Source: Bacteroidota bacterium
GTDB lineage: Bacteria > Bacteroidota > Ignavibacteria > Tepidaquicellales > Tepidaquicellaceae
NCBI GenBank assembly: GCA_018266835.1
Contig: JAFDZP010000002.1
Coordinates: 1,339,302 to 1,403,301, forward strand
Direction: 5' to 3'
Length of the DNA: 64,000 nt
Each line of letters opens with the position of its first letter. Position 1 is the first letter of the stretch. The notes beneath the pieces were generated by a model, which worked only from the letters and a program-made list of their open reading frames with translations, ran no database searches and was not told the origin of the DNA. This document shows positions 18,997 to 25,535 of this stretch, piece by piece. The position numbers were made by a program, and so were the translations under genes.

Positions 18997-21117
18997 TTAT
19001 TTTACTGTTGTTGTATCGCCTTTAATATCTGTTCCCATTCTTTGGAGATACGCAATAAGAGCAATAATTTCTTTGTTGCTTTGTGCCGGCGCTCCGTTCT
19101 TTTGCAAGTCCGCTGCTAATTCTTCTGCCTGTTTGGTTAAATCCTGCAGCGCCTGTTTTTCATATCCCGGTGCATAAGGAACACCCAGTGTCCTCATTGC
19201 ATTTATCTTGCTCTCTAAAGTAGAGTTATCAAGATTTTGCTTCAGCAGCCAGTCATAGTTCGGCATAATAGAACCCGGCGAAACGTTACGCGGATTTTCC
19301 ATATGATTATAGTGCCATAGGTTCGGATATTTCTTTCCTATTCTCATTAAGTCGGGACCAATTCTCTTCGAACCCCACTGGAAAGGATGGTCATAAACGA
19401 ACTCTCCTGCTTTTGAATATTCACCGTATCTTTCTGTTTCAGATCTGAATGGCCTTATCATTTGTGAGTGGCATGTGTAACATCCTTCTCTTACATAAAT
19501 ATCTCTGCCTTGTAATTCTAACGGAGTGTATGGTTTTACACTCGGTATAGTAGGGATATTAGCTTTTATCATGAACGTCGGAATCATTTCAATTGCACCG
19601 CCGATTATTATAGCAATAGTAGCAAGAAGTGCAAATTTTCCGGGACGTGTTTCAAGCCATCTGTGCTTAGTCGATTTATCAACGTAATCTTTTTCAAGAG
19701 CCGGTGCTTCAGCAGGTTCATTTGCTTCAAGTACTCCGGACTTTGCAGTCTTTATAAGATTGACTACCATTACTACCACACCCGTAAGATATAATGCTCC
19801 GCCAAATGCTCTTATCATATACATCGGGATAATCTGAATAACTGTTTCTAAGAAGTTTGGATACTGAAGAATGCCTAATGGAGTGAACTGTTTCCACATC
19901 AATGACTGTGTTATCCCTGCCCAATAAAGTGAAGCGGCATAAAATACAATTCCGAGTGTGCCAACCCAGAAGTGGAAGGCAGCCATTTTTTTAGAATATA
20001 AACTTGTTTTGTAAATCCTTGGAATAAGCCAGTATAAAATTCCGAATGTTAAAAATCCGTTCCATCCTAATGCGCCGATGTGTACGTGAGCAACGATCCA
20101 ATCTGTAAAGTGAGCAATTGCATTAACATTTTTTAATGAAAGCATAGGTCCTTCAAACGTAGCCATACCATAGCATGTAACTGCAACGACCATAAATTTC
20201 AGAGTAACATCGTCTCTTACTTTATCCCATGCGCCTCGTAATGTCAAAAGTCCGTTAATCATACCACCCCACGACGGGGCAATAAGCATAATTGAAAATA
20301 CTACTCCGAGCGATTGCGCCCAGTCAGGCAGCGCAGAATATAATAAGTGATGCGGACCTGCCCATATGTAAATAAAAATTAAAGACCAGAAGTGAACGAT
20401 AGAAAGCTTATAAGAATAAACCGGACGACCTGCCATTTTTGGAAGGAAGTAATACATCATACCCAGATAAGGAGTTGTTAAAAAGAATGCTACTGCATTA
20501 TGACCATACCACCACTGAACTAACGCATCCTGAACACCTGCGTAAACAGGATAACTTTTGAAAAATGATACCGGTATTTCAACAGAGTTTACTATATGGA
20601 GAACAGCGACTGTTACAACTGTTGCAATATAAAACCAAACTGCTACATAGATATGTTTTTCTCTTCTTTTGAATATCGTTCCGAACATGTTAATAGCGAA
20701 CACAACCCACACAAGAGCAATCATTATATCGATAGGCCATTCAAGCTCAGCATATTCTTTGCCGGATGTAAGACCCAAGGGTAATGTAATTGCAGCTAAA
20801 ACTATAATCAGCTGCCATCCCCAGAAATGAATTCTGCTCAGCAAATCACTGAACATTCTTGCCTTACAAACTCTCTGCAAAGAGTAATAAAGACCCATAA
20901 ATATTGCATTACCCACAAAAGCAAAAATTACCGCGTTTGTATGCAAAGGTCTTATTCTTCCGAAAGTTGTATATTGTGTGCCTAAATTGTGAACAGGGGC
21001 AAATAGCTGAAGCGCAGCCAGTAGCCCTACTAACATTCCAACGACTCCAAATACAATAGACGCAATCGCAAAATCCCTCACTATCTTATTATCATAACTG
21101 AATTTTTCAACAGTCAT
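18997..21117 (-). CDS. ccoNO: Fused cbb3 cytochrome c oxidase subunits I and II (CcoNO)
   Basis: A 706-residue catalytic core that reduces O2 to water and pumps protons. Residues 1 to about 475 are the 12-helix subunit I (CcoN), with the haem and CuB histidines in the motifs PLHTNAVIF, YGHNAVAF, GPHHLLY and HVHIGALGWNGF. After a linker and another transmembrane helix (about 495-515), the CcoO part begins, with CYTCH (C546, C549, H550) and the axial Met in the PGSIMPNYDWLL segment. Separate genes are usual in Proteobacteria; the fusion is a known arrangement in Bacteroidota. An AAGGAGA-type ribosome-binding site precedes the start. Confidence 0.96.
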   Translation of the reverse strand: MTVEKFSYDNKIVRDFAIASIVFGVVGMLVGLLAALQLFAPVHNLGTQYTTFGRIRPLHTNAVIFAFVGNAIFMGLYYSLQRVCKARMFSDLLSRIHFWGWQLIIVLAAITLPLGLTSGKEYAELEWPIDIMIALVWVVFAINMFGTIFKRREKHIYVAVWFYIATVVTVAVLHIVNSVEIPVSFFKSYPVYAGVQDALVQWWYGHNAVAFFLTTPYLGMMYYFLPKMAGRPVYSYKLSIVHFWSLIFIYIWAGPHHLLYSALPDWAQSLGVVFSIMLIAPSWGGMINGLLTLRGAWDKVRDDVTLKFMVVAVTCYGMATFEGPMLSLKNVNAIAHFTDWIVAHVHIGALGWNGFLTFGILYWLIPRIYKTSLYSKKMAAFHFWVGTLGIVFYAASLYWAGITQSLMWKQFTPLGILQYPNFLETVIQIIPMYMIRAFGGALYLTGVVVMVVNLIKTAKSGVLEANEPAEAPALEKDYVDKSTKHRWLETRPGKFALLATIAIIIGGAIEMIPTFMIKANIPTIPSVKPYTPLELQGRDIYVREGCYTCHSQMIRPFRSETERYGEYSKAGEFVYDHPFQWGSKRIGPDLMRIGKKYPNLWHYNHMENPRNVSPGSIMPNYDWLLKQNLDNSTLESKINAMRTLGVPYAPGYEKQALQDLTKQAEELAADLQKNGAPAQSNKEIIALIAYLQRMGTDIKGDTTTVK

Positions 21118-21707: not shown

Positions 21708-24116
21708 TTAAATTAATTTTTGTCTCTTTGCAAAAAAATCTGTCAGAAATATTGCAAAGAGAACTACTGAAATTGAACTGACCGGCATTAATATTGCCGC
21801 TACTATTGGTGATAACGCTCCTTGTACAGCATAGTAAAGACCTACGAAATTATAAAGCATAGAGAATGCAAAACTTGCTTTAATTACATTCATCGTAGTC
21901 TTTGAAAATATTAAATATTTATTAAGCTCTCTGAATTTTTCAGAGCTAAGTATGGCATCGCATGAAGGGGAAAAACATGTTACGCTTTCTGTCACGGCAA
22001 TCCCTGCATCGCTTTGCTTTAATGCGCCGGCATCATTTAAGCCGTCGCCTATCATTAATACTTTTTTGTTTTTATCCTGAAGAGTTTGTATATAGCTGAG
22101 TTTATCTTCGGGTTTCTGGTAAAATTTCATATCTGCCTGCGTGCCGAATATCTCCTGTAAGTTTTGTCTCTCGTTATCATTATCACCTGATAAAAGTGAA
22201 AGCTCTTTATCTTCTTTTAATTCATTAACAAGCTCGCTTAATCCTTTTCTGAAGTAATTCAGAATTAAAAAATATCCTTTAAGTTTTCCGTTCTTGCTTA
22301 CATAAACTTTCGAAGCTTTGTTTTCAGCATCTTCTTTGCTATCGCCTGCCATTACAAATTCAAGCATCCCTATTTTATATTCATTCTCTCCTACAATTCC
22401 TTTAATTCCTTTACCGGGAAATTCTTTATAATTGGCGATTGCAAATTCACCGTCACATTTTATCGAGCCATAAATTTTCTGGCTGAGAGGATGAGTTGAA
22501 TTTTTAACAAGAGATTTTATTTCGGAAAGTTCGTAATTGCTTAAGAGACTTCCGTAATAATTTAATTCAGCATTTTTTACCTGTGTAATTGTTCCTGTCT
22601 TATCAAATACAATCGAATCAATTTGTGAAAGTTTTTCAATCACGCCGGTATTTTTGAGATAAAATTTATTTTTACCGAAAATCCTCATTGAGTTTGAAAG
22701 CGCGAATGGCCCGGCCAGGGCTAACGCGCAGGGGCAAGCTATTACCAAAACGGCTGTGAAAACGTTCACAGCTATTTTTACATCTTTATTTAACCAAAAG
22801 GCCCCTGCGGTTAATGCTACAGCTATAGTTATATATGTAAAATATTTTGCTATTACATCATTTAATTTTGTTTTTATTACATCGGTCTTTTTAAATGCAT
22901 CGTTGTTCCATAACTGAGTAAGATAGCTCTGAGAAACGTCTCTTACTACTTCAAGCTCGAGAACATCTCCTTCCTGCCGTCCCCCTGCATAAACTATTTC
23001 GCCAAATACTTTTTCGATTGGGGTCGATTCACCTGTTACAAAACTATAATCTATCTTGGCGTTACCTTTGAATAAAATGGAATCGGCAGGAATAAGCTCA
23101 CCGTTTCTTATAACGATACGGTCTCCCTTTTGCAGCTTATTTATAGGAGTTGTAGTCTCGTTCTTATCTTTTAAAATTGTGACTGATATCGGAAAATATG
23201 ATTTATAATTTCTTTCGAAGTTCAAAAAGTCAAATGTCTTTGTCTGAATTAATTTTCCTATTAGTAAAAAGAAAATTAAACCTGTCAGCGAATCAAAATA
23301 TCCTGCGCCGAAACCTGAAATAACTTCGAATACACTTCTGAAAAATATTACCGCTATACCCAATGAAATCGGGACATCAAGATTAATATATTTTTGTTTG
23401 AGCCCTATGAAAGCAGATTTGAAGTAATCTGATGCGCAGTAAAAAAATACGGGGACGGATAGTAAGATATTTAGATATCCGAATAAATGTTTGTAGTACA
23501 TATCTAGATTTCCCAATGAAAGATACTCGGGAAAACTGAACAGCATAATGTTTCCAAAACAGAAGCCGGCAATTCCGATTTTATAATATAGTTTTTTTAA
23601 TACTTTCGGTTTGTCATTTTCAGCTAAATCATCAATATTTATCGCCGGCTCATAACCAATACTGTATAAAAGTTCTGCTATTTTCCTTAAGGAAGTTTCA
23701 CCTGTTTTATAGGTAATAAAAACTTTCTTTTGAGTGAAATCTGTTTTAGAATTTACAACTGCGTGATCTATCTTGTAGAGGTGCTCTAAAAGATAAATAC
23801 AGGATGAACAATGGATTGAGGGGATGTAGAATGTAACTTTTGTAATTTCGTCGTTTGAGAATTCAATTATCTGTTTTTGAATTTCTGCTTCATCAAGATA
23901 GTTGAATTTTATGCCTGAACCGGATTCTTTTAAATTTATTCCGGGGTGATTTTCTAATGTATAATAACTGCAGAGATTGCTCTGGAATAATAATTCATAA
24001 ACTGCCTTGCAGCCGGCGCAGCAGAAACTCTTATCATCGTATAAAATTTCATCGATGCATTCGTCTCCGCAGTGGTAGCAGATGTGTTTAGTTAATATGT
24101 CCGGTTGTTGTGGCAT
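21708..24116 (-). CDS. ccoI: Copper-translocating P-type ATPase CcoI (FixI)
   Basis: An 802-residue P1B ATPase that moves copper across the membrane for cbb3 assembly. An N-terminal Cys-rich metal-binding region (C13, C16, C20, C32, C33, C36) is followed by a heavy-metal-associated domain with CSSC (103-106). Eight transmembrane helices carry the CPC motif (461-463), and the phosphorylation site is DKTGT (Asp505). The nucleotide-binding GDGxND-type motif reads GDGLNDAGAL near 700. It is the first structural gene of the leftward cco run. A perfect FNR-type palindrome sits about 67-93 bp upstream of its start, so regulation by the adjacent Crp/Fnr protein is likely. Confidence 0.94.
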   Translation of the reverse strand: MPQQPDILTKHICYHCGDECIDEILYDDKSFCCAGCKAVYELLFQSNLCSYYTLENHPGINLKESGSGIKFNYLDEAEIQKQIIEFSNDEITKVTFYIPSIHCSSCIYLLEHLYKIDHAVVNSKTDFTQKKVFITYKTGETSLRKIAELLYSIGYEPAINIDDLAENDKPKVLKKLYYKIGIAGFCFGNIMLFSFPEYLSLGNLDMYYKHLFGYLNILLSVPVFFYCASDYFKSAFIGLKQKYINLDVPISLGIAVIFFRSVFEVISGFGAGYFDSLTGLIFFLLIGKLIQTKTFDFLNFERNYKSYFPISVTILKDKNETTTPINKLQKGDRIVIRNGELIPADSILFKGNAKIDYSFVTGESTPIEKVFGEIVYAGGRQEGDVLELEVVRDVSQSYLTQLWNNDAFKKTDVIKTKLNDVIAKYFTYITIAVALTAGAFWLNKDVKIAVNVFTAVLVIACPCALALAGPFALSNSMRIFGKNKFYLKNTGVIEKLSQIDSIVFDKTGTITQVKNAELNYYGSLLSNYELSEIKSLVKNSTHPLSQKIYGSIKCDGEFAIANYKEFPGKGIKGIVGENEYKIGMLEFVMAGDSKEDAENKASKVYVSKNGKLKGYFLILNYFRKGLSELVNELKEDKELSLLSGDNDNERQNLQEIFGTQADMKFYQKPEDKLSYIQTLQDKNKKVLMIGDGLNDAGALKQSDAGIAVTESVTCFSPSCDAILSSEKFRELNKYLIFSKTTMNVIKASFAFSMLYNFVGLYYAVQGALSPIVAAILMPVSSISVVLFAIFLTDFFAKRQKLI

Positions 24117-24182
24117 TGAATAAATTTTTCATTACAAAAATAGAAAGATTTACCCGCCTGCCAAATGATATCAGTCAGATTT

Positions 24183-24204
24183 AAATATGATATACATCAT
24201 ATTT
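24183..24204. promoter_or_regulatory. Putative FNR-type operator upstream of ccoI
   Basis: Perfect dyad AAATATGAT (24183-24191), centre ATAC, ATCATATTT (24196-24204). The core TGAT-N4-ATCA equals the FNR-family consensus TTGAT-N4-ATCAA at all inner positions. It lies between the small secreted protein gene and ccoI, and the gene for an FNR-like regulator is about 560 bp upstream. Its position suggests control of the cco genes by oxygen. A second site was not found upstream of the regulator itself. Confidence 0.72.
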
Positions 24205-24272
24205 TTAAATTGATGTTTTTTAGGTTGTTAAGGTGTAAAATGGGTGGTGAGGGGAAAATTTTTGGTATAAAA

Positions 24273-24770
24273 TTACTTCATATCGAAGCTGAGTTTTACC
24301 AATGCGCTGTTCTCTACCATGGAATTTCTGTTGCCTGTCATTGTGCCTGCTGCTCTGAAATTCACAAAGTCTCCTGTGCCTGCAGTTACATAAGTGTTTG
24401 CCTGAAACAAAGGATTTCCGCCGTTCGGACCTGAACCTTGTGCAATACCCTGAGCCTGAACAGTAAATGATGAGCCGTTATTGAATGTGAAAACGTAATA
24501 GTCGGTGAAAGTACCGTTGCCATCAACATAATCATATATAAAATATGATTTTACGGGAACGGATAAGCTGTCATTGAAAAGCGCTACTCCGGTTCCGATA
24601 GCTGTTCCGAGTCTGTGATTGGGAATATCGGGAATTTCAATGAAGCTGCTTTGCGTGATCTGATATTTTAAAGAAAACTTGAGATTAAGTACCTGGTAGT
24701 TGTTTTGTTGTGAGTATGAATTTGAAATAAAAATAAATAAAAAAACAGTAAGTATATATTTAAGTATAAT
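24273..24770 (-). CDS. Small secreted beta-barrel-like protein, apparent ATT start
   Basis: An open frame of 165 codons with no ATG, GTG or TTG upstream of a signal-peptide-like start. The frame opens after a TAG just inside the regulator gene, and the first plausible codon is ATT at 24770, followed by a hydrophobic stretch of Leu, Phe and Ile ending SNSYSQQ (a good export signal). The mature part is Gly/Thr/Phe-rich (GTGVALFND, GTFTDYYVFTFNN, VTAGTGDFVNFRAAGTMTG), the strand-rich pattern of allene-oxide-cyclase/dirigent-like barrels. Similar length and coding-type composition argue that it is real. It overlaps the regulator stop by 11 bases. Function unknown; the family is a tentative suggestion. 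Confidence 0.72.
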   Translation of the reverse strand: MILKYILTVFLFIFISNSYSQQNNYQVLNLKFSLKYQITQSSFIEIPDIPNHRLGTAIGTGVALFNDSLSVPVKSYFIYDYVDGNGTFTDYYVFTFNNGSSFTVQAQGIAQGSGPNGGNPLFQANTYVTAGTGDFVNFRAAGTMTGNRNSMVENSALVKLSFDMK

Positions 24771-25476
24771 GCTCTTCTATTCCCCCTATCTCTCTGAGTT
24801 TATTTTCATTTAATATTCTTATTTTCTTTCCGTCAAGCTCGATGAGTTTTTCGTTTTTGAAATCGGAAAGAGTTCTTATAACTGTTTCAGTTGTAGTTCC
24901 TACAATGTTTGCAATATCTTCTCGCGGTAGCACAATTTCAATTTTACTCTCATCCTGTTCTTTGCCTTTGAAAGTATCCTTAAGATAAAATAAAGTCTCT
25001 GCTAATCTTTCTCTCACGCTTTTTTGTGAAAGCGATTGAATCTTCTCCATAGCAATTCCGAGCTCTTTGCATAAGCTCACCATCATCTGTTTGGAGATGT
25101 AAGAATTCTTCTGAAGCATAGTTAAGAAATCTTCTTTTCTTATTAAACATACGACAGTATCTTCAAGAGCAGTTGCGGAATTTGCATAACCTTCTTCAGC
25201 AATAATTGCTCTGTATCCAAGGAAGTCACCGGGAATACCAAAGCCGGTTATTTGCTCTTTGCCGTCTTTGCCTGTTCTGTATAATTTTACTTTGCCTTTA
25301 TTGATGCAGTATAAACCGGGAGGAGTGTTTCCCTCGTAAAAAATTGTCTGGCCTTTTTTGAAGTGGTTACAGATCTTATTGCAGTTAATAACTTCTAAAT
25401 CATCCTCAAATGAAAAGTTCATTAAAGAATCAGCTTTTGCGTCACAGTCTTCACAGTCTATTTTCTTTACTATCAT
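24760..25476 (-). CDS. Crp/Fnr-family transcriptional regulator, FNR-like
   Basis: A 238-residue regulator with an N-terminal cyclic-nucleotide-binding-type barrel and C-terminal winged helix (about 165-225). Strong FNR-like stretches are KKGQTIFYEG (about 40-49), EQITGFGIPGDFLGYRAI (about 74-91) and ALEDTVVCLI (103-112), where Cys110 aligns with FNR Cys122. The recognition helix reads GTTTETVIRTL, keeping the Glu and Arg that contact TGA half sites in Crp/FNR proteins. Cysteines C8, C11, C32 and C36 are present near the N-terminus, though their spacing differs from E. coli FNR, so iron-sulfur binding is uncertain. It is upstream of the cco genes and probably controls them. Confidence 0.9.
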   Translation of the reverse strand: MIVKKIDCEDCDAKADSLMNFSFEDDLEVINCNKICNHFKKGQTIFYEGNTPPGLYCINKGKVKLYRTGKDGKEQITGFGIPGDFLGYRAIIAEEGYANSATALEDTVVCLIRKEDFLTMLQKNSYISKQMMVSLCKELGIAMEKIQSLSQKSVRERLAETLFYLKDTFKGKEQDESKIEIVLPREDIANIVGTTTETVIRTLSDFKNEKLIELDGKKIRILNENKLREIGGIEEHYT

Positions 25477-25535
25477 ATTAATAAATTAACTTATAGAGAT
25501 TAAACTTTCCAATTATTAATTAATACTATTTTTGC

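Follow-up and report, generated by a model that had tools for sequence, protein, structure and literature searches.

A predicted exported barrel protein with a likely ATA start codon, encoded between Fnr-type regulator and ccoI-like genes in a Bacteroidota genome

The space between an Fnr-type regulator gene and a ccoI-like gene in a Bacteroidota bacterium of the family Tepidaquicellaceae raises the question of whether it holds a protein-coding gene that has no ordinary start codon and, if so, where translation of that gene begins. The window, i.e., the whole 64,000-nucleotide stretch of DNA analysed, contains here a minus-strand stop-to-stop frame of 167 codons (24273-24776). The first-pass annotation had read it as a 165-codon gene (24273-24770) for a secreted, strand-rich protein, starting from an ATT that lies 11 bases inside the upstream gene. 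The coordinates and length are as described, and the overlap holds, with the regulator stop codon at 24760-24762. There is indeed no ATG, GTG, or TTG before the export signal. The first such codon in the frame is a TTG located 122 codons in, so gene callers restricted to these three codons would, as had been expected, miss the gene or shorten its product to ~45 residues. The features of the locus are listed in Table 1.

Table 1. Features of the barrel gene and its neighbourhood (window positions)
Feature	Position	Strand	Comment
Exported barrel protein (predicted), coding frame	24273..24767	-	ATA-started, with 164 residues and a stop codon; kept in sister species (L005/L016)
ATA codon, most likely start	24765..24767	-	Aligned with the ATG start of the sister species
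ATT codon, start in the first-pass annotation	24768..24770	-	ATT in the sister species too, directly before its ATG
Putative signal peptide, ILKYILTVFLFIFISNSYS	24711..24767	-	Cleavage placed before QQN by eye; predicted helix 2-18
Mature domain; eight-stranded barrel (predicted), allene-oxide-cyclase/dirigent/DUF3224 type	24276..24710	-	From models of the protein and a homologue
Crp/Fnr-family regulator, upstream gene	24760..25476	-	PF00027, PF13545, PF00325
Heavy-metal P-type ATPase (ccoI-like), downstream gene	21708..24116	-	PF00122, PF00702, PF12156
Fused cbb3 oxidase subunit I/II (ccoNO)	18997..21117	-	PF00115, PF02433; NF011053, 1290 bits
Perfect 7-4-7 palindrome, ATATGAT-N4-ATCATAT	24185..24202	.	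Upstream of the ccoI-like ATG at 24116

The length of the frame is by itself suggestive: 3 of 2000 dinucleotide shuffles of the region 24117-24776 contain a frame of 165 codons or longer in any of the six reading frames. The deciding evidence is conservation. In the sister species (G001), the sole other member of the genus among the 59 genomes searched, the frame is uninterrupted by stops or frameshifts, shares 69% protein identity over 165 aa, and lies in the same order, after the Crp/Fnr-type regulator and before the ccoI-like gene. Differences between the two species at codon positions 1, 2, and 3 number 40, 23, and 89, respectively. Simulated neutral substitution leaves the frame open in 268 of 2000 runs when 10% of the sites are changed and in 6 of 2000 at 31%. 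This frame is a real coding gene that is easily overlooked.

Selection on the gene is uneven along its length. For the whole gene, the NG86 method gives a dN of 0.226 and a dS of 2.27 between the two species; for the mature part, dN is 0.191 and dS is saturated, and for the 20 codons of the signal-peptide part, dN (0.533) is close to dS (0.550). Judged by these rates, the mature part is under strong constraint across the whole species split and the signal part is without constraint. The regulator gene is tighter than the barrel gene, with a dN of 0.079 and 27, 12, and 124 differences by codon position. At mature sites that differ between the two species, the residue of the nearest outgroup homologue (L006) is kept by the window protein at 5 and by the sister protein at 10, which might mean that the window protein has changed slightly more. 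The same comparison with three other outgroups is even (3/3, 5/5, and 3/3). Relatives had been named in the first-pass annotation as the check on the frame, its signal peptide, and its start. The frame is borne out; the signal peptide shows no constraint, and the canonical start of the sister lies one codon away from the proposed position.

More distant homologues are found in two members of the same family (G005, 37% identity, and G016, 28% identity) and elsewhere in the phylum (G334 and G419). A search with the single protein at an E value of 0.01 matches 6 of the 59 genomes, counting the window's own, and two of these matches are judged to be due to chance. In the sampled genomes, again counting the window's own, the family is present in 4 of 44 members of the order and 4 of 395 members of the phylum, i.e., it is rare in the phylum. 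Several weak matches were dropped: one in G050 (E = 0.0012) sits inside a 1031-codon frame, one in G026 (E = 0.0063) has three internal stops, and three others, in the window genome itself (G000), have E values of 0.5-1.7. No relatives of the barrel protein were found in the viral contigs searched, and the viral structure library contains no match to its model at an E value of 0.001 or better.

The genes downstream of the ccoI-like gene encode, in order, a DUF302 protein, the fused CcoNO, and CcoP. The best NCBIfam subfamily for the upstream regulator is Fnr (122.2 bits, below the cut-off of 228). Between the stop codon of the barrel gene and the ccoI-like gene lies a perfect palindrome, ATATGATATACATCATAT, with a core, TGAT-N4-ATCA, that resembles the FNR consensus site. 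The window and sister genomes each contain its pattern at a single location, which is the same spot in both; the reversed control pattern has one location in the former and none in the latter. When two mismatches are allowed, the window contains 5 matches versus 5.08 expected, which is not above chance, so that the evidence for the palindrome consists in its exactness, position, and conservation. In a member of another genus of the same family (G004), the regulator adjoins the ccoI-like gene without a barrel gene, and the gap between them carries a near copy of the palindrome, ATATGACATAAATCATAT. The palindrome may be a binding site of the adjacent Fnr-type regulator. Given its FNR-like core, the ccoI-like gene is probably transcribed from a separate promoter under Fnr control, with the barrel gene on the transcript of the regulator.

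This arrangement has a narrow distribution. Of 30 genomes, 24 contain regulator-like loci, 26 in all, and within flanks of up to 1.5 kb a ccoI-like gene is found in 3 of these loci (those of the window genome, the sister, and G004), of which the first two carry the barrel gene. As only these two loci combine the regulator, the ccoI-like gene, and the barrel gene, its placement seems, within this sample, to be specific to the genus. The barrel gene had been described as lying inside a respiratory oxidase locus, and in this genus that is its position. A functional tie to the oxidase does not follow: in G004, the regulator and the ccoI-like gene are neighbours without this gene, and in G005, the genes around the homologue are unrelated ones. 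On the other side of the regulator, the sister has two additional frames, of 258 and 230 codons (L016 2705-4154), between it and a recN-like gene, named by eye; in the window, the recN-like gene and the regulator are adjacent (25477-25535).

Alignment of the two species places the start. The sister reads TAA ATT ATG CTT AAA and the window reads AGC ATT ATA CTT AAA; in the sister, an in-frame TAA directly precedes the ATT, which is followed by ATG. Because this ATG aligns with ATA, one codon past ATT, the homologous start in the window is ATA, and the proposed ATT start is probably one codon off. ATG and ATA differ by a single base, and the same base is the first of the last regulator codon, which encodes Ala (GCT) in the sister and Thr (ACT) in the window. 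Read from ATA, the frame shares 8 bases with the end of the regulator gene. A frameshift fusion with the regulator was ruled out, since the sister has ATG. The homologue in G005, a more distant relative in which the gene has other neighbours, likewise opens with ATG near the aligned start point, and from these two relatives we infer that ATG was the ancestral state. The window frame has no canonical start compatible with the conserved N terminus; the use of ATA as the start is likely. A non-AUG start is not kept in relatives, as the sole other member of the genus has ATG.

How unusual this is can be seen from a genome-wide control, in which 475 reciprocal pairs of window-genome and sister genes passed the filters and 296 were left after removal of overlapping frames. 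The comparison flagged 63 pairs, inspected closely mainly where the first canonical start lies >15 codons inside the aligned region. Among the 296 pairs, the barrel gene stands out most for its missing start. A canonical start is absent from the window genome and present in the sister in two pairs, the barrel gene and G000:C2:1479446-1480222; the latter, outside the window, has TTA aligned with the sister ATG and no canonical start nearby. Two more such rows resemble antisense shadows, and three start late in both species. In the opposite direction, the sole sister pair is G001:C3:171479-172633, with CTG in the sister versus TTG in the window genome and no other canonical start nearby; the remaining rows in this direction have an ATG farther downstream, are shadow-like, or run into N. 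The infC genes of both species, found by family search (L137 in G000 and L136 in G001), have no ATG, GTG, or TTG before the conserved N-terminal region, and both have ATT at the same aligned codon. An ATT (AUU) start of infC is a classic near-cognate start in other bacteria, e.g., Escherichia coli.

Starts at ATA have been described elsewhere. In the overlapping rsbV/rsbW genes of Listeria monocytogenes, rsbW is still translated after its ATG has become ATA, and the output of rsbW reporters decreases in the order ATG, ATA, ATT (PMC13068326). In Staphylococcus aureus, AUA starts are listed for infC, ccpN, and citZ, with the ccpN and citZ AUA reporters reaching ~10% of the AUG level and ccpN up to 30% in rich medium (PMC13009471). 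In an ancestral reconstruction of 61,358 AUG starts (PMC5622118), there were 363 switches to GUG, 113 to UUG, 2 to CUG, and 1 to AUU, which makes switches from AUG to such near-cognate codons very rare; AUA is absent from the main text of that study.

The best explanation, to which we assign a probability of about 0.6, is that this is a functional gene for an exported barrel protein, the second cistron after the Fnr-type regulator, started at ATA. Built on the computed coding conservation, synteny, ATG/ATA alignment, and predicted fold, it would run as follows. A single substitution converted an ancestral ATG to ATA, and ribosomes that have translated the regulator would go on to translate the barrel protein from this near-cognate codon. 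Because ATG became ATA, output should be low and dependent on coupling to the regulator stop codon just downstream of ATA. The first ~19 residues would be removed on export, and the remainder would fold into a soluble barrel with eight strands, of the allene-oxide-cyclase/dirigent/DUF3224 type. Its most likely role would be to bind a small hydrophobic ligand, either in the periplasm or outside the cell. Against this explanation count the lack of conservation of the start, the unconstrained signal-peptide part, the slight excess of change seen with the nearest outgroup, the fact that a recently lost start would leave the frame intact, and the fact that an erroneous base in a single assembly would give an identical picture. 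A more ambitious version, which we consider rather doubtful, is that the change from ATG to ATA is a fixed, adaptive lowering of barrel protein output in this species, with translation held down both by near-cognate initiation that is sensitive to IF3 and by coupling to the regulator stop codon, the regulator being of the Fnr oxygen type. The protein would then be made in proportion to the regulator and the ribosome state, in a lineage with an ATT-started infC.

A sequencing or assembly error and a recent loss of the start together carry a considerable minority of the probability. An error, or a minority variant, would mean that the species has ATG and that the gene is ordinary. The base is known from one assembly, the sister ATG is one base away, and the published list of switches from AUG has 1 AUU and, in its main text, no AUA (PMC5622118). 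However, G000 is 99% complete in 8 contigs, no frame damage is seen in the barrel gene, and the base gives a legal Ala/Thr change in the regulator; we regard an error as unlikely. Loss of the start, with a gene that is silent or nearly so and on its way to becoming a pseudogene, would fit the lack of any canonical start before the TTG, the weakly constrained signal peptide, and the 5 versus 10 residues shared with the nearest outgroup. The absence of stops and frameshifts, the mature part having been strongly constrained throughout the divergence of the two species, and the ability of ATA to work as a near-cognate start elsewhere (PMC13009471 and PMC13068326) make it quite improbable.

The N terminus of the barrel protein is hydrophobic, with QQN following the putative signal peptide. 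The AlphaFold2 model (three sequences) has eight strands (pLDDT 81.1, pTM 0.74), and both observations support the secreted, strand-rich barrel protein originally proposed. The best Foldseek matches in PDB are 3g7g (E = 6.8e-4) and 3c5o (E = 1.4e-3). VIA-align ranks 2q03 first (Z 14.1, rmsd 2.3, 122 residues aligned) and 3g7g second (Z 13.3, rmsd 3.4, 131 aligned), followed by Diels-Alderases, dirigent proteins, allene oxide cyclases, and the DUF3224 structure 2ooj (Z 10.8, rmsd 2.9, 117 aligned), with a Z of 10.5 for the allene oxide cyclase 2gin and 11.3 for the dirigent protein AtDIR6 (5lal). The model of a 35%-identical homologue from L017 (pLDDT 73.9) also has 2q03 first (Z 14.1, rmsd 2.2, 122 aligned). 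On these predicted models, solved members of the fold are matched over most of the domain.

Sequence searches with the window protein find no family match in Pfam or NCBIfam and no match among PDB sequences; a PDB profile search with six relatives gave short or weak matches, the best to designed trefoils (E = 0.0065), which were dropped. DUF3224 (PF11528) does not match the window protein up to an E value of 10 or any protein in G000, and the best-scoring relative, L006, reaches 13.9 bits where >25 are needed. The literature search found no paper on DUF3224 or on a bacterial allene oxide cyclase barrel. The protein is a predicted eight-stranded barrel, and the models point to the soluble type. 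An integral outer-membrane barrel is very unlikely: L006 has a weak match to OMP_b-brl (PF13505; E = 0.0028, 18.3 bits versus a cut-off of 28.7), the window protein has none, and outer-membrane barrels appear in the structure lists with a Z of up to 10.0 (3dzm) for the window protein and up to 9.7 for the homologue, but soluble barrels come first for both models at 14.1. Outer-membrane barrels usually end in an aromatic residue, whereas the last residue is K in the window protein, N in the sister protein, and Q in the G005 homologue.

The soluble barrels 2q03, 3g7g, 2ooj, 2gin, and 5lal resemble the predicted window protein barrel over nearly the whole mature domain, and Diels-Alderases such as 8of7 belong to the same group, in which Z ranges from 14.1 to about 10. 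Unlike them, the window protein has no sequence family match, is putatively exported, and has no active site identified. Barrels of the allene-oxide-cyclase/dirigent type hold small hydrophobic ligands or substrates; a function for this protein that is inferred from the fold is only a guess.

As for the start, translation from ATT, one codon upstream of ATA, is the least probable alternative: ATT occurs at this place in both species, as it does at the likely start of their infC, but in the sister it is directly followed by ATG, an obvious start, and the Listeria reporter made more protein from ATA than from ATT (PMC13068326).

In the barrel gene, a fold that is already known appears together with a start of a rare type for which there are precedents, and it opens no new kind of system. 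It provides a clear natural case of a conserved, predicted exported protein that would be lost by callers limited to ATG, GTG, and TTG, in which two related species differ by a single base at the start codon, and it extends the allene-oxide-cyclase/dirigent barrel fold by a predicted exported branch that matches no Pfam family. As in the ATG-to-ATA change of Listeria rsbW (PMC13068326), the downstream start overlaps the end of an upstream regulator gene, and one base alters both that start and an upstream residue. However, the Listeria change is a selected mutation in a tested strain, with a 17-base overlap, whereas the one seen here is a difference between species, with an 8-base overlap, read from sequence alone. 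With the AUU-started infC, which by inspection is present in both species of the genus, the barrel gene shares an apparent near-cognate start; the non-AUG start of infC is kept in both species, whereas that of the barrel gene is not.
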